64,000 nucleotides of DNA from Enterococcus mundtii (GTDB lineage Bacteria; Bacillota; Bacilli; Lactobacillales; Enterococcaceae). The DNA is taken from contig NZ_AP019810.1 of the NCBI RefSeq assembly GCF_013394305.1, positions 1,619,501-1,683,500 of the forward strand, given 5' to 3'. Positions 3,903-47,387 of the stretch are shown here, in pieces. A program made the translations under genes and the position numbers. Each line of letters starts with the position of its first letter. Within the stretch, counting starts at the first letter, position 1. Below the pieces are notes generated by a model. That model made no database searches and was not told where the DNA came from. It saw nothing but the letters and a program-made list of their open reading frames with translations.

Positions 3903-4481
3903 ATGACTAGAAAAATTTACGGCTATGCTCGAGTTTCAACTAAACAACAAGATCTTTCGCGACAGTTAGATTTATTAGAAACTTATCATTGCGAAAAAAT
4001 ATATACTGAAAAAATCAGTGGTGTCCGTGCAAGTCGTCCAGAACTAAATAAACTAAAAAAACGTGTAAAGACCGGTGATCAAATAGTCATTGAAAGCTTC
4101 TCACGATTTGGACGTAGCACAAAAGATTTAATTAACCTTGTTTATTTTTTTGAAAAAAAAGGAGTTAAAATAATCAGTATAAAAGAAAATTTTGATACTC
4201 AAACTCCTCAGGGAAAATTAATGATCACTGTTTTCCAAGCTTTTAGTCAATTTGAACGAGATATTATTGTTGAAAGGACCCTTGAAGGATTAAACTCTGC
4301 ACGTGCAAGAGGTAAGGTTGGTGGCCGGCCAAAGGTAGATCAAGACGTTCTTCAAGAATCACTCTCATTACACCTTACAAAAGGATTATCTGTCTCAGAA
4401 GTTTGTAAAAAAACTGGGATTAAACAATCAACTTTTTATCGCTATTTAAAACTAGAGAGGAATCTTTCTGAATTGAGTTAG
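3903..4481 (+). CDS. Hin/Gin-like serine DNA invertase
   Basis: The product has 192 residues, matching Hin and Gin in length. The N-terminal catalytic domain has YARVS with nucleophile Ser12, and SRFGRS supplies the two active-site arginines. The long E helix includes QFERDIIVERTLEGL. The segment ARARGKVGGRPKV leads to a C-terminal helix-turn-helix (VSEVCKKTGIKQSTFYRYLK) for site binding. GGAGGAA precedes the ATG. All catalytic residues I can place are intact. Directly downstream lie two inverted hix-like sites and a WxL surface operon. This suggests that the enzyme inverts the promoter region of that operon, although a resolvase role cannot be excluded from sequence alone. Confidence 0.9.
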   Translation: MTRKIYGYARVSTKQQDLSRQLDLLETYHCEKIYTEKISGVRASRPELNKLKKRVKTGDQIVIESFSRFGRSTKDLINLVYFFEKKGVKIISIKENFDTQTPQGKLMITVFQAFSQFERDIIVERTLEGLNSARARGKVGGRPKVDQDVLQESLSLHLTKGLSVSEVCKKTGIKQSTFYRYLKLERNLSELS

Positions 4482-4603
4482 TTCTTATGGCCCAGTATTT
4501 TTTAAGTGACCAAAGAAATATATCACTTTATTTGGAAAAATATTTCTGGTATAGTATGATGTAAGTATAAGTCATGTATAATAGTTATTGGCTTAACTTT
4601 TAA

Positions 4604-4629
4604 TTCTCAAAAACCTTCGTTTTTAGTAA
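4604..4629 (+). repeat. Left hix-like recombination site
   Basis: This 26-base site has two 12-base half-sites, TTCTCAAAAACC and CGTTTTTAGTAA, around a TT core at 4616-4617. The layout (26 bases, 2-base core, A-tract and T-tract half-sites) follows Hin/Gin crossover sites; compared from memory with hixL, 19 of 26 bases agree. It lies 123 bases after the invertase stop and has an inverted partner at 4722-4747. Confidence 0.7.
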
Positions 4630-4648
4630 TTTAAATTCGTTATTTATC

Positions 4649-4677
4649 ATTATAAATAGGGAACCTAATCTAATCAC
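4649..4677 (-). promoter_or_regulatory. Minus-strand promoter inside the invertible segment
   Basis: A perfect TATAAT reads on the minus strand at 4654-4649. The -35 position 17 bases away reads GTGATT, only 3 of 6 matches to consensus. At present it points toward the invertase gene and away from the surface operon. The weak -35 means it may need an activator. Confidence 0.45.
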
Positions 4678-4683
4678 TTTTTC

Positions 4684-4716
4684 AAGACATCTGATGGTAT
4701 CAGATGTCTTTTTTTT
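4684..4716 (+). terminator. Terminator blocking the WxL operon
   Basis: Perfect 12-base arms AAGACATCTGAT and its complement surround a 3-base loop, followed by eight T bases (4709-4716). It would stop transcripts coming from the invertase side before they reach the gene at 4772. On the opposite strand it lacks a T run. Confidence 0.85.
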
Positions 4717-4721
4717 GTGCT

Positions 4722-4747
4722 GTCCTTAAAACGAAGATTTTTGAGAC
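4722..4747 (-). repeat. Right hix-like recombination site (inverted)
   Basis: Read on the minus strand, the half-sites are GTCTCAAAAATC and CGTTTTAAGGAC around a TT core (4735-4734). It matches the left site at 21 of 26 positions. Because the core is TT in both sites and the sites face each other, recombination between them would invert the DNA between them. Confidence 0.68.
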
Positions 4748-4771
4748 ATCTAAGAATATAGGAGGAGGGGT

Positions 4772-5134
4772 ATGAAACACTTAAAAAGATGCATATTAAG
4801 TATAGGTGTAGTATTGATTCAAGTTTATGCACCACTAGTTGTTCATGGGACAGAAGTACACTCGGTGGAAACTGAAGGAACAATTGGTTTTACTGGGGTA
4901 TATGAAACACCAGGAATACCAGAGCCAGCACCAGAAGTTGAGGTAAAACCAAGCTTTCCCAAAGAAATTGTTCAATCACCATCAGAAGTGCGAAAGAGTG
5001 AACATAAAAAATTACCTCAAACGAACGAGAGTCAGATGAGTGCTTGGAAAATATTGGGCATTCTGATCATCGTAGTCATACTTGGCTTTTGGTTTTGGAA
5101 AAAACAAAAAGAAAAAAACAATCAAAGAAAGTAG
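4772..5134 (+). CDS. Small LPXTG-type wall-anchored protein of the WxL operon
   Basis: The product has 120 residues. A signal peptide (about residues 1-26) is followed by a short proline- and glutamate-rich stretch. The sortase motif LPQTN is at residues 81-85, followed by a hydrophobic helix and a basic tail (KKQKEKNNQRK). AGGAGGAGGGG precedes the ATG. Short LPXTG proteins of this type are regular members of WxL gene clusters in enterococci and lactobacilli. It is the first gene of the operon and the first that the putative invertible promoter would reach. Confidence 0.85.
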   Translation: MKHLKRCILSIGVVLIQVYAPLVVHGTEVHSVETEGTIGFTGVYETPGIPEPAPEVEVKPSFPKEIVQSPSEVRKSEHKKLPQTNESQMSAWKILGILIIVVILGFWFWKKQKEKNNQRK

Positions 5135-5145
5135 GATTTAAATAT

Positions 5146-5937
5146 ATGAAATTCGTTAGATTAGCAACCATTGCAACATTATCAACTACTATTTTCGCCG
5201 GAGGAGCGATTTCTGCGTTTGCCGACGAGACTCGTCAAGTGACGACCAACGGAAATATCGAATTTACACCTAGTACAGACGAACCAGAAATCGTTGTTCC
5301 ACCAGTAGAAGAACCAGATGTAGAGATTGAACCAGAAGTACCCGGAACCACGGGTCCTTTGTCAATTGTAAAGGCTGCGACAATGAATTTTGGTTCACAA
5401 GTGATTTCAAATCAAGATCAAACGTACAATATGATTGCAGAAAGACAACAGAAGACCGGGACGACTGGTGAGGAAAATAAAGTTCCTTTTGCCAGTTTTG
5501 CACAAGTTTCTGATACTAGAGGAAGCAATGCAGGCTGGAATTTGAAAGTCAGTCTAAGTGACTTTCAAGCGGGAAATACGCAAAACGCTATCTTGAGAGG
5601 AGCCAAAGTCACTTTAAAGGATCCACAAATTCGATACATGGGGAACAATCAAGAGTTAGCTCCAGCTGCACATGCAAATACTTTGGAATTGGAGCCTAAT
5701 AGTGGCGCAGTTTCAGTTATGACCGCTGAGTCAAGTAAAGGAGCAGGGCGTTCATCTGTTGTTTGGGGAAATCAACCAGACTTAGATGCCCAATTTGAGG
5801 CAGATCCAAGTGCAACTGTGACAAACAATGCCATTCAATTATTTGTACCTGGCGCGTCAGCCAAAGACGCGACCACTTATACCTCAACATTGACATGGGA
5901 ATTAACGACTACACCAGGTAGCGATGTAGGAGCCTAA
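5146..5937 (+). CDS. WxL domain surface protein
   Basis: The product has 263 residues. The ATG at 5146 begins a clear signal peptide with cleavage near FADE; upstream codons overlap the previous gene and are unlikely. A proline- and acid-rich linker leads to a C-terminal WxL domain with the two signature motifs: WNL at residue 131 and LTWEL with Trp251, followed by the final P. WxL domains attach non-covalently to peptidoglycan and to DUF916 partners. The start lies 11 bases after the LPXTG gene. The function is a wall-bound structural or adhesive component; the ligand is unknown. Confidence 0.9.
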   Translation: MKFVRLATIATLSTTIFAGGAISAFADETRQVTTNGNIEFTPSTDEPEIVVPPVEEPDVEIEPEVPGTTGPLSIVKAATMNFGSQVISNQDQTYNMIAERQQKTGTTGEENKVPFASFAQVSDTRGSNAGWNLKVSLSDFQAGNTQNAILRGAKVTLKDPQIRYMGNNQELAPAAHANTLELEPNSGAVSVMTAESSKGAGRSSVVWGNQPDLDAQFEADPSATVTNNAIQLFVPGASAKDATTYTSTLTWELTTTPGSDVGA

Positions 5938-6011: not shown

Positions 6012-6038
6012 GAATGAAACATCGAAGGAGTGTGTTTG

Positions 6039-7094
6039 ATGATAAAAAGTACGATATATCAAATAAAGAGGAGGATTCAATGGAGTGGACGATTACTTAT
6101 TATGTTAGCGTTTTTGTTCTCTCCAATTCTTGTTTCTGCAGAAGAAAATTTAAGTTTTTATGTCACACCAGAGTTTCCAGAGAGTCAAGTAGAAGGAAGT
6201 GGCCGTTACTTCGACCTTAACAGTGAACCTGGAAGTACAGAGGAATTGACACTGAAAATTCAAAATGCTAATGATCAAGCAAAGACGATTGAAATCACGG
6301 CTCATACGGCATTTACTAATGTCCAAGGAGTGGTGGAATATGGTAAAGATGCCGAAAAAGCAGACCCAACCTTACCCTATTCTTTGGCAGACTTAATTGA
6401 ACCCCCAGTCCCTATTGAGCTTGCAGGAAACGAAACAAAGACTGTCAAAGTAATGCTAAACATGCCTAAAGAAGCTTTTTCAGGGTTTTTAGCGGGAGGC
6501 TTAAGAATTGCAGAGGTGAAAGAAAAGCCACAGGAAACAGAAACAAGTGGAGAAGGAGTGGCGATCAAAAATGAATTTGCCTATGTCATAGGTGTAGTGG
6601 TGAGTAATGATCGCTCTGCCGTAAAACCTGATTTAGATTTATTGGATGTCTTTGCCGATCAACTCAACTATCGCAATGTTATCAGTGCGAACTTACAGAA
6701 CTTTACACCTACCTTTGTCAATCATTTAGAAGTAAAAGCAACGGTACAAAAAGAAGGGGAGAACGATATTCTCTATCGAGCTAAGCAAGAACAGATGCAA
6801 ATGGCACCTAATTCTAATTTCAACTTCCCCATCTCTTTAGAAGGGGATCGCTTTCGAAGTGGCGACTACGTGTTGAAAATGACGGCACGTTCAGGAGAAG
6901 AGGAATGGCAATGGGAACGGAAATTTACCATTGAAGCAGATACAGCCCGAGCATTGAATCAGCAAGATGTCACAATTGATACGAGTATTAATTGGTGGCT
7001 CGTTGCCGCGGTCATCCTGATTCTTTTCTTATTGTTGATTATTGTTTGGTTACTTATTAAGAAGCAAAGAGCTAAAAATAAGGAGGACCAGTGA
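6039..7094 (+). CDS. DUF916/DUF3324 WxL-interacting membrane protein
   Basis: The product has 351 residues. AAGGAG at 6025-6030 favours the ATG at 6039. After a signal peptide, the N-terminal domain begins SFYVTPEFPESQVEGSGRYFDL, typical of DUF916, with Ig-like strands. The second half fits DUF3324. A single transmembrane helix (INWWLVAAVILILFLLLIIVWL) and a basic cytoplasmic tail end the protein. Such proteins bind WxL proteins and peptidoglycan and tether the complex to the membrane. The stop is one base before the next ATG, so translation is probably coupled. Confidence 0.9.
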   Translation: MIKSTIYQIKRRIQWSGRLLIMLAFLFSPILVSAEENLSFYVTPEFPESQVEGSGRYFDLNSEPGSTEELTLKIQNANDQAKTIEITAHTAFTNVQGVVEYGKDAEKADPTLPYSLADLIEPPVPIELAGNETKTVKVMLNMPKEAFSGFLAGGLRIAEVKEKPQETETSGEGVAIKNEFAYVIGVVVSNDRSAVKPDLDLLDVFADQLNYRNVISANLQNFTPTFVNHLEVKATVQKEGENDILYRAKQEQMQMAPNSNFNFPISLEGDRFRSGDYVLKMTARSGEEEWQWERKFTIEADTARALNQQDVTIDTSINWWLVAAVILILFLLLIIVWLLIKKQRAKNKEDQ

Positions 7095-7095
7095 G

Positions 7096-10000
7096 ATGAA
7101 AATTAAAAAAGTCTTGGTCGTGGCAAGTGTTAGTCTTCTTTGTTTTCCTTCGCTCTTTTTCTCAGTGATTTCAACGAGTATGCCTGTGTTTGCCATTGAG
7201 AATTCTGTGGAACTATCGAGAGAATCAGAATTGATGGATCCACTGACCAATACAACAGAAACAAAAGCGCCCATTTTTTCATTCGAAGAAAATCAAGAGC
7301 CATCTATAGCAAATAAACAGTTTCAATTAGTCGTACGTTCCAGTCAAGATGTTTCCGAGTTTGTGTTGAATCTCCCAGAGGGAGTCAGTATCGTAGAAGA
7401 CAAATCTGCTGATAGTAAGTTCACTAATATAGAAGGAGGCCAGTGGCAAGTACGGACGAATTCTCCACAAATGATCTTTTCCATTCCACTAGTTGTAGAA
7501 AAAGCAGGAGCCTATGAGATAGCTGTCGGAGAATCAAAAATGACGCTTAACATTCAATCAGAGGAGAGTCAACAACCCAGTGAACAAGAAGTCACTTCCT
7601 CGGAAGAAAAAGAAACAGCGAAGACCGAAGAATCAACAGTCGAAGAAGAAGCGAGTGTATCAAGTGATGAAAAATCATCAACCACAGATACTTCGCAAAA
7701 TGATCCAGAACAAGTAACAGAAAGCGCTCGGTCAACAAAAGAAGCGAGTGTCCAAGATGTGGCGAATTGGGAAGAGTTTATCCGTGCATTTGTAGATCCG
7801 TCAATAACAACGATTAATGTTGTTTCTGATTTTCAAACACCAGATAATCCTCGACTCAATCTAACGGATATTACAACAGGTGGAACGAATAATCCTAATG
7901 GTGGGACAGCATTTGTTTATCTTAATGTAGCTAATATCTCTAGAAATCTAACGGTCGAAGGAAATGGCCATCAAATTGATTTTCGCGCAATCACTTTATG
8001 TTTTAACAATATTACGGCTAATTCTTCAACTCCTTGGAATATCGCGTTAAAAGATTTAGAGATATACCACGGAAACTATTATGGACCGTTGACTTTCAAT
8101 GATTTGAACGTGACGAATCAAACTGCTAGTCAGATCACTTACCATAATATTACGAACTACGGAAATCAACTGATTCATTCACCTTACAGTAGTATTAAAA
8201 TCTCAGGTAAATCAAGTAGTAAACAAGTATCAGAGTATACTTCCTCTTTTGGTACGTGGCGCATCAATGCACTAGATCAAACGAATATCTATGCTTCAAA
8301 TTTAACGATAGTTGAAGATGCTGAGGTTGAATTAGAAACAATTAGCGCAGGTAATTTAGATTTAGGAGGAGTAGTACACCCCAATAACAACTTTAGAATG
8401 GAAAAAAATTCATCTTTAAATGCTGTATCAAAAGGAAATGCTGGCGAAGCTGATGGAACAAGTTTACTCGTTCGAAGAGGCAGTGTTGAAATAGATGAGG
8501 GTGCAAAGCTGAACTTAGTACCACAAAATCTAAGATCAGCAATTTCTTTACGTACTGCGAACTCATCGCTCAGAATAAAAGAAAAAGGCGTCCTTACCAT
8601 CGATTCTCAAGGAACAAAGGCGAATGCTAATGGTGCCCTATATAATATTATTTGGATGGCGGCAGGAAGTAATCTACTAGTAGAAAGCGGGAGTACACTG
8701 AATATTGTTGCTACTGAAATGGCTGCCTCACCATCGAATCTTTTACATGTTAATGGAGATGCAACGGTATCCATCGGCAAAGATGCCACCTTGAATATAA
8801 AAAGTGACAGCACCTCAAATGATCAAAATTTGATGTACTTCGCTTCTGCTGGGTCAACTTTTGAATTTTCTGATGCTCAAGAAGTCAATTTGGAACGAAC
8901 TGGAACGATTGCCGGAACGTCGACCGCCAACGGATTGATTAATATCGCAGGAAGTACCGGTCTATTAGATATCGATGTCCAATCAGTGAAACAATGGGCA
9001 AGAGGAAATTTTGAAGAGATACCTGATCATTCATGGACACCTATCTTCAATTTGAATCTACGCTATACAGGAATTGTACCTAGGATTAACGATGATGTTT
9101 CTTCTATTCCACAAGAAACAGCGGATAGTTTTAAACAATATTTCACTACGCAAAATGTCCAACGGGTTTTATTTGAAAAAATTCCAGATGTCGAAGTCAC
9201 GATTGATCCGTTAACAGAAGATCCGAATGAAGTGAATTCTCATACGATTACTGGAAAGGCGAATCCTAATAGTATGATCCGCTTCTCAGGCGATCCGGCG
9301 ATTCCTGCAGGCTCTATTACTTCACCTGATATTTCTGAAAGTGAAAAGTATCATACAACGGCAGATGAGAATGGGGATTATCGTTATGAATTACCGGAAG
9401 ATCGACGATTCACTGCTGGAAATACCGTGACAGCCTATGCTTTTTTGAATGGGAAAAATGATACCGCTAGTACAATGGTAGAGGAAAAAATTGTGGTGGC
9501 ACCTGTGGATCCATTAGATCCTGAAACGGAAGTTGAACCGGAGAATAAACCAGAAATCCCAGAAGATCAAGGACGTTTGAGTCTAGATTTTGTGTCCCAA
9601 TTTAACTTTGAGACACAAAAAATATCTGTTAGTGATCAAACGTATTACGCCCAACCACAACGGTTATTAAATGAAGATGGAACGGTTAACGAGACGAAAG
9701 AGCGTCCAAACTATGTGCAGATCAGTGACCGTCGTGCCGCCAATGAGCGCAATGGATGGCAATTATCAGTTACTCAGAACGGACAATTCCGTAATGAAAG
9801 CGGACATGAATTGATTGGGTCTGAAATCCAGTTATTCAATCAAGAACTAGTGACTGCACAAGGCGGGACTAAACCTGAACTACAGGAAGAACCTGTACAA
9901 AGAATCGTACCAAATACAAGGAAAGTACTCATACAAGCAAACGGAGAATCTGGTACAGGAACGTGGATCTATCGTTTTGGGGATCAACAAACGGCAGATA

Positions 10001-10098
10001 AAAGTGTCAGTCTCTATGTCCCTGGAGGGACAAATCCAGAAGCAACTAGTTATTCGACCAAGCTGACATGGGAATTAAGTGCAGTTCCTGGTAATTAA
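7096..10098 (+). CDS. Large WxL surface protein with beta-helix-like adhesin region
   Basis: The product has 1000 residues. The signal peptide ends near VFAIEN. An Ig-like region follows, then a Ser/Glu-rich spacer at about residues 155-215. Residues of about 230-650 form a repetitive, Asn- and Ser-rich stretch with the regular pattern of a right-handed beta helix (pectate-lyase-like adhesins). An Ig/bacterial big domain (ITGKANPNSMIRFSG) and a C-terminal WxL domain (NGWQLSV, then LTWEL with Trp992) finish it. GGAGG overlaps the DUF916 stop. It is probably the main adhesin presented by the operon; the binding target is not evident. Confidence 0.87.
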   Translation: MKIKKVLVVASVSLLCFPSLFFSVISTSMPVFAIENSVELSRESELMDPLTNTTETKAPIFSFEENQEPSIANKQFQLVVRSSQDVSEFVLNLPEGVSIVEDKSADSKFTNIEGGQWQVRTNSPQMIFSIPLVVEKAGAYEIAVGESKMTLNIQSEESQQPSEQEVTSSEEKETAKTEESTVEEEASVSSDEKSSTTDTSQNDPEQVTESARSTKEASVQDVANWEEFIRAFVDPSITTINVVSDFQTPDNPRLNLTDITTGGTNNPNGGTAFVYLNVANISRNLTVEGNGHQIDFRAITLCFNNITANSSTPWNIALKDLEIYHGNYYGPLTFNDLNVTNQTASQITYHNITNYGNQLIHSPYSSIKISGKSSSKQVSEYTSSFGTWRINALDQTNIYASNLTIVEDAEVELETISAGNLDLGGVVHPNNNFRMEKNSSLNAVSKGNAGEADGTSLLVRRGSVEIDEGAKLNLVPQNLRSAISLRTANSSLRIKEKGVLTIDSQGTKANANGALYNIIWMAAGSNLLVESGSTLNIVATEMAASPSNLLHVNGDATVSIGKDATLNIKSDSTSNDQNLMYFASAGSTFEFSDAQEVNLERTGTIAGTSTANGLINIAGSTGLLDIDVQSVKQWARGNFEEIPDHSWTPIFNLNLRYTGIVPRINDDVSSIPQETADSFKQYFTTQNVQRVLFEKIPDVEVTIDPLTEDPNEVNSHTITGKANPNSMIRFSGDPAIPAGSITSPDISESEKYHTTADENGDYRYELPEDRRFTAGNTVTAYAFLNGKNDTASTMVEEKIVVAPVDPLDPETEVEPENKPEIPEDQGRLSLDFVSQFNFETQKISVSDQTYYAQPQRLLNEDGTVNETKERPNYVQISDRRAANERNGWQLSVTQNGQFRNESGHELIGSEIQLFNQELVTAQGGTKPELQEEPVQRIVPNTRKVLIQANGESGTGTWIYRFGDQQTADKSVSLYVPGGTNPEATSYSTKLTWELSAVPGN

Positions 10099-11122: not shown

Positions 11123-11851
11123 TCAAGTAATTAGTTTTTTCAGACCACGAATGGATACTGGAATAATGTCCCCGTTTTCTAAAGTAACTTCCCGTATTTT
11201 TTTATTAATCATTTGAATATTCTGGGTATTTACTACAAATGATTTATGGCAACGAATAAAGTGATGGTTTCTATCTTCAATCTCTTTTATGTTGCCATAG
11301 AACTGGAATTGACTATAAGGGAGATGTACCTCTAATTTATGAGGTACACCAGGAGAAGTAGAAAAGTATTGGATATCTTTAACAGGTAAAAATTTGATTT
11401 CATCGTTGAATTCGATTTTAAACATCTCTTTTTCTAAAGGAGCTATTTGAAGATCTTTAAATAGCTTACTTAAAATACGTTCGATATTATCTTTCAAATG
11501 TAAAATATCTTCCTTGATAATATAATCAGTGGGTTCAATATTATTTTTCAAAATAATCAACGAAAGATCAGTATAAGAAGTGACATAAATTATTTTACCA
11601 GATGGATCAAGATCACGAATTTTTTTACCGAGTTCAATCCCATTCAATTCACTGTCCTTCAATTCGATATCTAAAAAATAAATACCAAAAGGAGATGTAT
11701 TTATTTGAACACTTGTGAGTAAATCTTGGGGATTTGAAGTAACGAAATGGATATAGTAGCCTAAATTTTCAATCATGATTCGATTCTTTATGACAGTAGT
11801 TATCATCTCCAGTTGTTTCGGATCATCTTCACATATATATATTGGAATCAT
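11123..11851 (-). CDS. AgrA/FsrA-like LytTR response regulator
   Basis: The product has 242 residues. The receiver domain has an acidic pocket at Glu8, Asp9 and Asp10 and a phosphoacceptor Asp61 in FLDIEL. The C-terminal LytTR DNA-binding domain contains HHFIRCHKSFVVNTQNI, the conserved core of AgrA, FsrA and ComE. It follows its histidine kinase by 14 bases on the same strand. In related systems this pair reads a secreted cyclic peptide. No agrB- or agrD-like gene is next to it here, so the signal is unknown. Confidence 0.9.
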   Translation of the reverse strand: MIPIYICEDDPKQLEMITTVIKNRIMIENLGYYIHFVTSNPQDLLTSVQINTSPFGIYFLDIELKDSELNGIELGKKIRDLDPSGKIIYVTSYTDLSLIILKNNIEPTDYIIKEDILHLKDNIERILSKLFKDLQIAPLEKEMFKIEFNDEIKFLPVKDIQYFSTSPGVPHKLEVHLPYSQFQFYGNIKEIEDRNHHFIRCHKSFVVNTQNIQMINKKIREVTLENGDIIPVSIRGLKKLIT

Positions 11852-11865
11852 TAAAAAAGCTCCTT

Positions 11866-13146
11866 TTAATGTGTTTGTATATAAATTGTTTGAGAAAAAC
11901 GCTGATTTTCAATTGAAGTTTCAATCAATAGATAAGGGTTCGTTTTTGCCAAATTATCCAGGATATGCAGACCCAGTCCTTCATTTTTAGGATTGCTCTT
12001 CGTAGAAAAACCCTTTTGTTTTAATTGGTTAAGTGGTAGTGTATTGATAGTTGTATTAACTACTCGAATAACTAACGAATTTTTCTTCTTTAAAATTAAC
12101 AATTCGATTTTTTTCTTTTTTGTCACAGCAGCTCCTTCTGTTGCGTTATCTAAGACAATACCAAGTATACGAACTAAATTAACCGTATGCTTGGAATCAA
12201 TTTTTACTTCTTCAGGTATGGTTATCTGTAGAGAGATACTTTTCTCTATTGCCATCATCAATTTTAATGACAATAAACTTCTTATTTCCGGTACATTTAT
12301 TTTATCTAATAAACTAAGATTTACTGGGGTAAGATTCATTATCTCACGTGTAGGAAGTATATTTTGATCGTAATATTTTTGTAGTCCTTCTAGATCCTCT
12401 TCAATAATATAACTATTCATCGAAAATAATAGATTCTGATAGTCATGCTTGAATTCCCTAAGTTCTTGATAATTTTTCTCAATATCTCTTATATAATCTT
12501 GTTGTAGCTGGATTCGTTGTTCTAATAATTGTTCTTCCATTTTTGCATTTGAAATTTTCCAATAATAAATAAAAATAATTAAACCAATACATAGATATAG
12601 AATAAAAAAAGTAGTATTTAATGCAAGAACTTCCGGATTTCCTCCCGAAAAACGAGTATATAAGATAATAATATAATAAGTTGAAAGAATAAATACACCG
12701 ATTGTACCGATTATTTGGTAATCAATTACATAAGACCAATTATCAAGAGATTTTCTAAAACTATAAGCAAGGATAAAAGACAAAAGAGCTGAAAGCGCAA
12801 TATGAAAGTATTGCGAGCTGTCTCCGGGTTCGATCACTGGAGAACCAAATACTATAAAATCTCCTATACTTGCTAGATGATCTCCTAGTAGGGAAGATAA
12901 TAATCCCAAAGTTAAAGCATATACTAAGGGTCGATGTGATGAAGATAAACAATGGAATATCATAGCTAACATAAAAATTGCTATTAGTGTAGAAAAAATC
13001 CCAAATAGTGGGTACAAGACACTTAATAAGATAGCATTTAAACAAGTAACAATTAGAAAAAGAGATTTATGTACTATTTGATAATCGATGAGTAATATAC
13101 AAATTGTATATATGAAATATTGTAAGGCTATAGGCCATAAAAACAT
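11866..13146 (-). CDS. AgrC/FsrC-like sensor histidine kinase
   Basis: The product has 426 residues from the ATG at 13146. AGGAG ends directly against an earlier ATG at 13155 but stands 8 bases before 13146, so the second start is preferred. Six or seven N-terminal helices form the sensor. A coiled stretch (EEQLLEQRIQLQQDYIRDIE) leads to the phosphoacceptor His in REFKHDYQN. The ATPase part has NATEGA and GLGLHIL, the N and G boxes of the HPK10 family. It is co-transcribed with the LytTR regulator. The ligand is presumably a peptide, by family analogy only. Confidence 0.9.
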   Translation of the reverse strand: MFLWPIALQYFIYTICILLIDYQIVHKSLFLIVTCLNAILLSVLYPLFGIFSTLIAIFMLAMIFHCLSSSHRPLVYALTLGLLSSLLGDHLASIGDFIVFGSPVIEPGDSSQYFHIALSALLSFILAYSFRKSLDNWSYVIDYQIIGTIGVFILSTYYIIILYTRFSGGNPEVLALNTTFFILYLCIGLIIFIYYWKISNAKMEEQLLEQRIQLQQDYIRDIEKNYQELREFKHDYQNLLFSMNSYIIEEDLEGLQKYYDQNILPTREIMNLTPVNLSLLDKINVPEIRSLLSLKLMMAIEKSISLQITIPEEVKIDSKHTVNLVRILGIVLDNATEGAAVTKKKKIELLILKKKNSLVIRVVNTTINTLPLNQLKQKGFSTKSNPKNEGLGLHILDNLAKTNPYLLIETSIENQRFSQTIYIQTH

Positions 13147-13231
13147 AGAATACATCTCCTAATGTGTTTTCTAAAATTATAACATAAAGCTTATAATATA
13201 ATTTTTTAGTAATTAATTTAACCTTTTTAAT

Positions 13232-38441: not shown

Positions 38442-39397
38442 TGTCAACAGTAGAACTGATTTCCTTGATCCTTACATCAACACTTGTTTATTCAACACCG
38501 TTGATTTTAACCTCCTTAGGCGGAACGTTTTCTGAACGAAGCGGGATCGTCAACGTTGGGTTAGAAGGCATCATGGTGATGGGGGCGTTTAGTGCGGTCG
38601 TCTTCAACTTGACGATGAGTGACACATTAGGCTCAATGACTCCTTGGATTGCTATTTTAGTCGGTGGCGTAGTTGGTGTTCTCTTTTCCTTGATCCATGC
38701 AGTCGCAACAATCAGCTTGCGCGCAGACCATATCATCAGCGGAACGGTCATCAATTTGATGGCACCTGCTTTAGGTGTATTTTTGATCAAAGCATGGTAT
38801 GGTAAAGGACAAACAGACAATATCTCACAAAACTTAGGTTACTTTTCATTTCCTGGATTATCTGAGATTCCAGTGATTGGTCAAATTTTCTTTAGAAATA
38901 CATTTTTACCAGCGTATTGTGCGATTTTAATTGCTGTTATCGCATGGTTCGTCATCTTCAAAACTAAATTTGGTTTACGTTTACGTTCTGTTGGGGAAAA
39001 TCCTCAAGCTGCAGATACACTAGGGATCAATGTATATGCGATGCGCTATTCAGGTGTCTTGATTTCTGGTCTTCTTGGAGGCATGGGTGGAGCTGTGTTC
39101 GCTCAATCGATCTCTGGGAACTTTTCAGCAGGAACGATTGTCGGTCAAGGGTTCATCTCAATGGCTGCAATGATTTTTGGTAAGTGGAATCCACTAGGTG
39201 CGATGGGTGCATCCTTATTCTTTGGTTTTGCACAAAGTTTGAGTATCATCGGCGCGCAATTACCAGTGATTTCTTCAATTCCACCAGTTTTACTACAAAT
39301 TGCGCCTTATCTATTAACGATTATCGTTTTAGTGGCGTTCTTAGGTAAAGCATCTGGACCAAAAGCCAACGGTAAGAATTATATAAAATCCAAATAA
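38441..39397 (+). CDS. Nucleoside ABC transporter permease 2
   Basis: The product has 318 residues with eight to ten helices. GGTFSERSGIVNVGLEGIMVMGAFSA is the conserved element of this permease subgroup (NupC/RnsD type). It completes the importer. A terminator-like hairpin follows before deoB. Confidence 0.92.
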   Translation: MSTVELISLILTSTLVYSTPLILTSLGGTFSERSGIVNVGLEGIMVMGAFSAVVFNLTMSDTLGSMTPWIAILVGGVVGVLFSLIHAVATISLRADHIISGTVINLMAPALGVFLIKAWYGKGQTDNISQNLGYFSFPGLSEIPVIGQIFFRNTFLPAYCAILIAVIAWFVIFKTKFGLRLRSVGENPQAADTLGINVYAMRYSGVLISGLLGGMGGAVFAQSISGNFSAGTIVGQGFISMAAMIFGKWNPLGAMGASLFFGFAQSLSIIGAQLPVISSIPPVLLQIAPYLLTIIVLVAFLGKASGPKANGKNYIKSK

Positions 39398-46691: not shown

Positions 46692-47276
46692 TTAATTGAA
46701 TAATTGCTGAAGCTCTTTTTCAGGTAGGTTGATATATTTGTAGCAAGTGCCGACTGAAACGCCACATTTTGAAGAAATAAATTGGATCGTTTCTTTCTTT
46801 TCATAGTAGAGACGACGAATTTTTTTGATTGTTTTGGCATCGATTTTTGGTCGTCCGCCGATTTTTCCTTTTTTGCGTGCTTCATCTAATCCAATCAGCG
46901 TGCGTTCTTTGATCAATGCACACTCCATCTCAGCTAATCCTTCCATCAATTGGAAGTAGACCGTCCCCATAGGTTCGCGAGTATCGATTTTTTCTGTGAT
47001 GCTGACTAGATGTAACCCACGGTCTTTAAATAATTTCGTGAATTCTGTTAGTTGTCTTGTCGATTTTCCTAGATGATGAAGCTGGCAAATCACTAATGTA
47101 TCGCCTTGCTCCATTTTTTCGATGACTTTTTCTAAACAAATGGCGTCAGATAAACTGTCTTTTTGACCATACGTTTCGTGAAAAATTTCGTGACAACCAA
47201 AATCAGAGAGTTTTTGCATTTGAGCCGTCGAATCGACATCATTAATAGTTGTACGTGCATAACCGATAATCTTCAT
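46692..47276 (-). CDS. Serine-recombinase homologue with altered active site
   Basis: The product has 194 residues with the overall resolvase/invertase layout: catalytic fold, long helix (AEMECALIKERTLIGL), KIGGRPKI hinge and C-terminal helix-turn-helix. The nucleophile position reads YARTT, with Thr10 instead of Ser. The usual DRLGRS is HHLGKS, losing both active-site arginines. The frame is intact, has a ribosome site and lies between housekeeping genes. It looks like a recombinase that has lost catalysis but may still bind DNA. Confidence 0.85.
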   Translation of the reverse strand: MKIIGYARTTINDVDSTAQMQKLSDFGCHEIFHETYGQKDSLSDAICLEKVIEKMEQGDTLVICQLHHLGKSTRQLTEFTKLFKDRGLHLVSITEKIDTREPMGTVYFQLMEGLAEMECALIKERTLIGLDEARKKGKIGGRPKIDAKTIKKIRRLYYEKKETIQFISSKCGVSVGTCYKYINLPEKELQQLFN

Positions 47277-47387
47277 GGTGATTCCTTTCTAGCAAAGTTT
47301 TCTAAGTGTTTGAGACAAGTAAAAATGTAGCATAAAGTAACTGAAAAAGATAGTTTTTTTAGGCATTTTCAACGAATCTCTTTCGCA

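Follow-up and report, generated by a model that had tools for sequence, protein, structure and literature searches.

The surface-protein operon that begins at position 4772 of the window, a 64,000-nucleotide stretch of the Enterococcus mundtii genome (G000:C1:1619501-1683500; the genome, G000, comprises 3.3 Mb in four contigs, C1 to C4), is preceded by a short DNA segment between two inverted recombination sites, and we consider it probable that this locus is one member of a multi-copy Enterococcus family of invertible terminator switches. In the assemblies compared, the segment of approximately 117 bases is found cleanly inverted between its sites at other loci of the same genome and on related plasmids. 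The original prediction had described a single switch at this place; a segment of this architecture is indeed present, but the description was incomplete, since it is one of six in the genome.

The first element of the locus is a gene for a serine recombinase of 192 amino acids, the candidate invertase, at 3903-4481 on the plus strand (Pfam Resolvase, E 1.3e-42), and the two inverted sites adjoin it as predicted. The left site (4604-4629, plus strand) has its TT core at 4616-4617 and the right site (4722-4747, minus strand) at 4734-4735. Between the cores lies the interior of the segment (4618-4733, no strand assigned), for which homologous interiors exist in both orientations at other loci. 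Recomputation confirmed 21 matching positions out of 26 between the inverted sites, both of which have TT as their core. This is the best inverted 26-mer match within 4482-4771, and it was reached by none of 200 dinucleotide-preserving shuffles (mean 16.8, maximum 19). The eight-T terminator that was said to face the operon was recovered by a terminator scan as a 12-pair stem at 4684-4710 with a 3-base loop and eight T at 4709-4716 (4684-4716, plus strand); a hairpin with a T run is present on only one strand of the segment. On the minus strand, a TATAAT at 4654-4649 would come to lie about 70 bases before the ATG at 4772 after a flip, so the predicted geometry is correct; the position of this element is not conserved among the copies. 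Outside the segment, TTGGAA-17-TATGAT at 4532-4560 (plus strand) is a candidate for the operon promoter (p 0.04 against shuffles), and its -10 element begins 49 bases before the left site.

Downstream of the right site, four genes follow on the plus strand. The first encodes a small LPXTG protein of the EF2685/EF0750 family (4772-5134; NCBIfam NF053819, 90 bits against a cut-off of 47), the second a WxL domain surface protein (5146-5937; PF13731, E 5.1e-52), the third a WxL-interacting protein (6030-7094; PF06030, PF11797) and the fourth a large WxL adhesin with a pectate-lyase-like adhesive domain (7099-10098; PF13731, PF20585). Near the operon, an Agr-like response regulator and histidine kinase are encoded on the minus strand at 11123-13155, both scoring below the cut-offs of the AgrA and AgrC models; at the equivalent position, plasmid pLDW-8 carries LytTR and GHKL genes.

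The closest solved structure to the product of 3903-4481 is the Gin DNA invertase (4m6f, E 2.6e-33), and gamma-delta resolvase is also among the closest. Arg10, Ser12, Arg68, Arg71, Glu124 and Arg125, which we take to be the catalytic set of a serine recombinase, are all present, so that the catalytic residues claimed to be intact are there; however, Ser67 aligns with the Asp of Gin's KLDRLGR motif. Among the relatives listed, Ser at this position is common to the orthologs and to proteins of 58-62% identity. The protein is thus a small serine recombinase with the catalytic Ser and Arg residues and a C-terminal helix-turn-helix, the latter matched by models below their cut-offs, as in Hin and Gin, and the label Hin-like fits both the enzyme class and the layout of the sites. 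The NCBIfam model for Mpi (NF009949) matches it with 78.5 bits and thereby misses its curated cut-off of 272 bits.

The recombinase is 100% identical in E. mundtii Pe161, 96-100% identical across Pe161, CVM N55263 and plasmid pLDW-8 of DSM 4838, and 72-78% identical in E. gallinarum, E. casseliflavus, E. innesii, RIT-PI-f and one MAG. Relatives at 58-65% identity are found on plasmids and chromosomes. Orthologs (E<=1e-55) occur in 11 of 106 Enterococcaceae genomes. The viral_contigs set contained no confirmed relative, and the 498 matching records of the 'phages' set are all below 60% identity. A second serine recombinase in the window (46707-47279, minus strand; G000:C1:1666207-1666779) is 33% identical to the first. 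Genes for Mga-like regulators adjoin several of the switches or recombinase genes (L083 8847-10322, by Pfam; L092 4215-5690, annotated as helix-turn-helix; L033 6332-7822, by eye).

Altogether, 21 inverted site pairs were found before surface operons, most of them WxL operons. The six pairs of the window's genome lie on C1 (the window copy and one near 1,985,369, L115), C2 (near 61,244), C3 (near 51,562) and C4 (near 26,809 and near 39,079, the latter L121). Pe161 has four pairs, pLDW-8 three and an additional damaged one, and CVM N55263, E. gallinarum and genome G089 one each; the remaining pairs are on plasmids of strains P6 (pP6-4 one, pP6-6 two), QU 25 (pQY082, one) and Pe103 (pPe10302, one). 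Not counted among the 21 were the pair on pP6-3, which duplicates the pP6-4 switch, the damaged pLDW-8 copy (L054 3014-3155) and a pair in genome G034. The core dinucleotides are identical within each of the 21 pairs (14 TT, 7 AT), an agreement that is partly by construction, because several of the search patterns demanded equal cores. With a relaxed pattern that left the core free to be T or A on each side, 12 of 12 pairs still agreed, as did L115 and L121, for which agreement had not been demanded. The cores are 116-120 bases apart in 20 pairs and 107 in one, an evenness that is partly built in because the gap in the patterns could vary over a range of 30 bases. When read backwards, the pair patterns had no match in 106 genomes, and a looser single-site pattern had 24 matches against one for its backward form. 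In an order-level sample of 396 genomes, pairs were present in five, all of which belong to the window's family, and the strict pair pattern had no match in viral_contigs.

In the window and in all ten further loci scanned among the other 20 pairs, the first gene 3' of the switch encodes an EF0750-family LPXTG protein, one of the ten being truncated and below the cut-off, and WxL proteins come next wherever the region was scanned or annotated. The E. gallinarum switch is followed by a gene that encodes DUF285 and MucBP domains and has no Pfam WxL match. In G000, seven further WxL regions (L116-L120, L122, L123), grouped by eye from 29 WxL matches, contain no convincing pair, low-scoring candidates having been judged to be chance. 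Likewise, no pair was found in the stretch read around the WxL operon of E. gallinarum plasmid pEG002, nor near the recombinase gene of E. casseliflavus and E. innesii, and in CVM N55263 only one site lies near the recombinase gene.

Several copies show peculiarities of their own. The seven AT-core pairs are L084 8245-8387, L089 5560-5702, L115, L121, L092 11856-11999, L126 and L127; as AT is its own reverse complement, these sites have no core polarity, and they might permit deletion as well as inversion. Plasmid pLDW-8 has two copies of recombinase plus switch (L054 2313-3155 and 20203-21044), the first with a damaged left site and the operon start missing. The pair in G034 (L114 7878-8013) has TT cores and precedes an ORF of 126 residues; farther on, an ORF resembles Mga-like regulators by eye, and no WxL gene was noticed. 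After one of the C4 switches of the window's genome, the WxL match (G000:C4:25625-26310, L082) is split in two and contains a stop, and the operon under this switch may therefore be a decayed one. The DNA likeness of the window to pP6-4, pP6-3 and pQY082 (L055, L056 and L057, near 10002) begins at the left site (window 4603/4604): the interior and the operon are alike and the upstream regions unrelated, which looks, as far as the sequences tell, like an exchange of promoters at this site.

The most direct evidence for inversion comes from near-identical copies in opposite states. L121 and the second pair of pP6-6 are identical at 160 of 164 positions upstream (97.6%) and 341 of 342 downstream (99.7%), whereas the interiors agree at only 58 of 117 positions (49.6%) as found and at 115 of 116 (99.1%) when one is flipped. 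Within the window's genome, L115 and L121 show the same pattern, with 92.7% identity upstream, 98.8% downstream and 50.0% in the interior as found against 96.6% flipped. Copies of this type lose their upstream likeness farther out, falling to about 74% over 600 bases; pPe10302, pP6-6 and L115 are in one state and pLDW-8 and L121 in the other. A second locus type gave a signal of the same kind, the C3 pair of the window's genome and the first pair of pP6-6 having flanks of 85% and 86% and an interior of 49% as found and 69% flipped. In a more distant comparison, the second pair of pP6-6 and the C2 pair have flanks of 63% and 74% and an interior of 55% as found and 66% flipped. When 17 pairs were scored against nine reference copies, 14 interiors fitted as found, two only when flipped (the C3 pair, 24 as found versus 90 flipped, and the second pair of pP6-6, 31 versus 69) and one neither way; flank scoring was confined to the downstream side, as found. 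The interior of the E. gallinarum copy is unlike all others, therefore no orientation was assigned to it. Among the 21 pairs, the terminator faces the operon in 16 and is reversed in four, and in the window's genome four face the operon and two are reversed. As near-identical copies face opposite ways, switches of this family have flipped. The original prediction was to be given up if no related genome held an inverted form; checked on assemblies, inverted forms were found for the family.

For the window copy itself, no flipped form was seen, as the copies in the window, in Pe161 and the intact one on pLDW-8, the three intact copies compared, all face one way. Of the proposed switch before this WxL operon, the architecture is therefore borne out, including its inversion in relatives and paralogous copies, but not a flip of this particular copy. 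By the terminator reading, the window copy and its counterparts in Pe161 and pLDW-8 would be OFF. The window copy has four T in the inner arm of its right site, where each of the other 20 pairs has five, a shortening that is unique among the 21. It is a real possibility, although we lean against it, that the loss of this base has inactivated the window copy in the OFF state and that only its paralogues flip. The shared orientation of the three intact copies would agree with this, and a precedent is found in the available part of the account of the cwpV switch of Clostridioides difficile, in which strain R8366 has a two-base deletion in the left repeat and was found in one orientation only (PMC2784873). 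However, the arms in Pe161 and pLDW-8 are full-length at the same locus, yet these copies are OFF too; OFF may thus be no more than the usual state, and binding may survive the loss of one base outside the core.

The distribution of the recombinase indicates which enzyme may act on the sites. All six genomes in which the relaxed pattern found a pair, out of 106 Enterococcaceae genomes, fall among the 11 with the recombinase, a coincidence with a probability of 2.7e-7 if kinship is ignored. For four of the 11 recombinase-bearing genomes (G031, G087, G088, G102), none of the patterns tried revealed a pair; the pair in G034 was found by the loosest pattern only, does not precede a WxL gene in the stretch read and is doubtful. 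In the window's genome, recombinase matches at E<=1e-50 are confined to C1, whereas pairs are present on C1, C2, C3 and C4; as three contigs thus have pairs without the recombinase gene, the enzyme probably acts in trans. In G089, the gene and the pair are on different contigs of a draft assembly. We infer, with good support from these distributions, that the recombinase encoded at 3903-4481 catalyzes the inversion, also at switches on other contigs. It is quite unlikely that another cellular recombinase inverts the family and that the 3903-4481 gene is a mere neighbour. The genome contains ten matches at E<=0.001, nine of them beyond this gene; different recombinase genes are annotated some kb from the pP6-4 and pQY082 switches, and neither plasmid is among the best 40 matches to the enzyme; and four or five genomes have the recombinase without a convincing switch. 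Against such a reading, an ortholog is present in all six pair-bearing genomes and adjoins a site pair in E. mundtii and, differently arranged, in E. gallinarum. It is very unlikely that the sites serve resolution or co-integration by a plasmid-type resolvase and that the inversions are by-products without a regulatory role. The occurrence of the 58-65% relatives on both plasmids and chromosomes and weaker site-like matches near two relatives (L007, 17-18 of 26; L008, 20 of 26) would fit such a role, but the inverted arrangement of the pairs, the terminator between their sites and their place immediately before LPXTG/WxL operons, both chromosomal and plasmid-borne, speak against it.

The content of the segment that is best conserved is the terminator. 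A hairpin with a T run on one strand is kept in 13 of 14 TT-core copies, judged by eye from the listing, with a short stem in pQY082. The T run is short, with four to five T, in the AT-core copies of L121 and pLDW-8, and the interior of the E. gallinarum copy has no clear terminator. In the mechanism that we propose, a promoter outside the segment would drive a transcript toward the operon. In the OFF orientation, this transcript would meet the hairpin and T run and stop; in the ON orientation, the T run would be on the wrong side and transcription would enter the LPXTG/WxL adhesin operon. The recombinase encoded at 3903-4481 would catalyze the inversion and serve the switches on other contigs, and as each operon would be ON or OFF independently, cells of one clone would carry different sets of adhesins. 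Orientation-dependent expression of the operons is thus deduced from the arrangement of these elements.

The position of the promoter decides between control by termination and classical promoter inversion. Six upstream contexts that are unrelated to each other share a sigma-A-like -10 element at 49-56 bases outside the left site. In a post hoc test with a hand-set matrix, 43 of 2000 circular shifts did as well at a shared distance, two of the six contexts scoring poorly (1.4 and 0.6), and taken singly, only two of 17 upstream regions beat their own shuffles at p<0.05. The contexts were grouped without gaps at a threshold of 55%, which was our choice and places G004C2a in the second group; an earlier grouping, which lumped nearly everything together (123/1000), was replaced by the ungapped one. 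For interiors in the ON orientation, the corresponding figure was 1145 of 2000 shifts, indicating that these interiors have no positionally conserved promoter-like element, and the internal TATAAT that the original prediction took for the operon promoter is not borne out by them. A signal in OFF-oriented interiors (24/2000) was disregarded, since most of the interiors are homologous to one another and the T run of the site itself serves as the '-35' element.

As a -10 element is found at a shared distance outside and nothing comparable inside the segment when ON, we prefer termination control over promoter inversion. An invertible terminator with its promoter approximately 50 bases upstream of the left site is suggested with weak to moderate strength, because the test was post hoc and the matrix hand-set. 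It seems unlikely that the operon promoter is in the segment, facing away at present and toward the operon after a flip, with the terminator as a secondary insulator. In favor of such a promoter, the flip would place GTGATT-17-TATAAT of the window copy about 70 bases before the first gene, a AAGTGATTAAATTAGG-like block beside the hairpin is conserved in most TT-core interiors, and two ON-facing interiors score fairly high (the C3 pair as found, p 0.09; the first pair of pP6-6 flipped, p 0.03). However, the flipped score of the window copy is unremarkable (p 0.12), and the lack of positional conservation in ON-oriented interiors also argues against it.

Among described systems, the cwpV switch of C. 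difficile is similar in many respects. It consists of a 195 bp segment with imperfect inverted repeats before a surface-protein gene, with the recombinase encoded elsewhere; according to the part of the account available, the promoter lies upstream of the left repeat, an intrinsic terminator was proposed to act in the OFF transcript, and reporter activity was kept when the switch region was absent (PMC2784873). Its recombinase, RecV, is a tyrosine recombinase (PMC5903667). Both systems thus combine a surface-protein gene, a short segment, imperfect inverted repeats and a terminator in one orientation. Differences are that the hairpin is located where the left repeat meets the segment in cwpV and wholly inside the segment here, that the enzyme adjacent to the sites is a serine recombinase in place of the tyrosine recombinase RecV, and that the Enterococcus switch is repeated before many paralogous operons, including those on plasmids. 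The segments inverted by Mpi of Bacteroides fragilis carry promoters. Mpi is a single serine recombinase that inverts at least 13 regions genome-wide, as stated in the part of the source that we draw on (PMC5903667). Likeness to Mpi consists in the enzyme class, the many sites and the model match mentioned above, and it may extend to action in trans, whereas the segments here carry terminators in place of promoters, the phylum and the targets differ, and the recombinase, although it may work like Mpi, is not filed as a member of the Mpi family. With Hin and Gin, the system shares the size and catalytic domain of the enzyme and 26-base sites with identical two-base cores, and the layout of the sites presumably resembles that of hix. 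In contrast to Hin and Gin, the motif Asp is replaced by Ser, the segment has only about 117 bases and sites also occur on contigs without the gene. In the lactic acid bacterium Lactiplantibacillus plantarum, a promoter inversion occurs upstream of the msa adhesin operon, mostly in one orientation in the wild type; like the present system, it is an inversion ahead of an adhesin operon, but it concerns one adhesin and a promoter, and the available part of the account proves no recombinase (PMC8493755). The flagellar switch of C. difficile, as far as the part of the account available describes it, also inverts within a 5' leader and has a terminated OFF transcript, but termination is Rho-mediated and the recombinase is RecV (PMC7446863).

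Invertible terminators, multi-site serine invertases and inversion of adhesin promoters are thus each known from the partial accounts cited. Their combination in a serine invertase with multi-copy, plasmid-spread invertible terminators before WxL operons was not found in the literature searched, in which mainly titles and abstract openings were covered, subscription papers being mostly outside the scope. The search returned no inversion switch for WxL operons or for Enterococcus; the original prediction, too, knew of no described WxL switch of this kind. The words WxL, phase and invert are absent from a paper on E. mundtii (PMC4076982). A survey of a defined gut community gave, in the part available, a median of 0 invertons per genome in 'Firmicutes (primarily Bacillus-like)', and the words Enterococcus and WxL are absent from it (PMC11892184).

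In enterococci and lactobacilli, WxL operons make up a large system of surface adhesins. To our knowledge, little is known about how their expression is controlled. Going beyond the single locus, one chromosomal serine invertase may run, in trans, a network of invertible terminators before chromosomal and plasmid WxL adhesin operons, a proposal to which we assign about an even chance of being right. Plasmids, including conjugative ones, would carry the cassette together with the operons, so that an incoming set of adhesins would at once be phase-variable via the resident invertase; the division into TT and AT core classes would prevent recombination between groups of loci, and the same cassette would have acquired different promoters through exchange at the left site. 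If this is true, the six switches of the window's strain would allow 64 surface states. The other orientation can be predicted for each of the 21 copies, so the question is directly testable by PCR or long reads. If our reading is right, the family would exemplify both invertons in Bacilli and the spread of related invertible terminators on plasmids, and one small enzyme would explain mixed surface states in clonal cultures, which the deletion of one gene would freeze.
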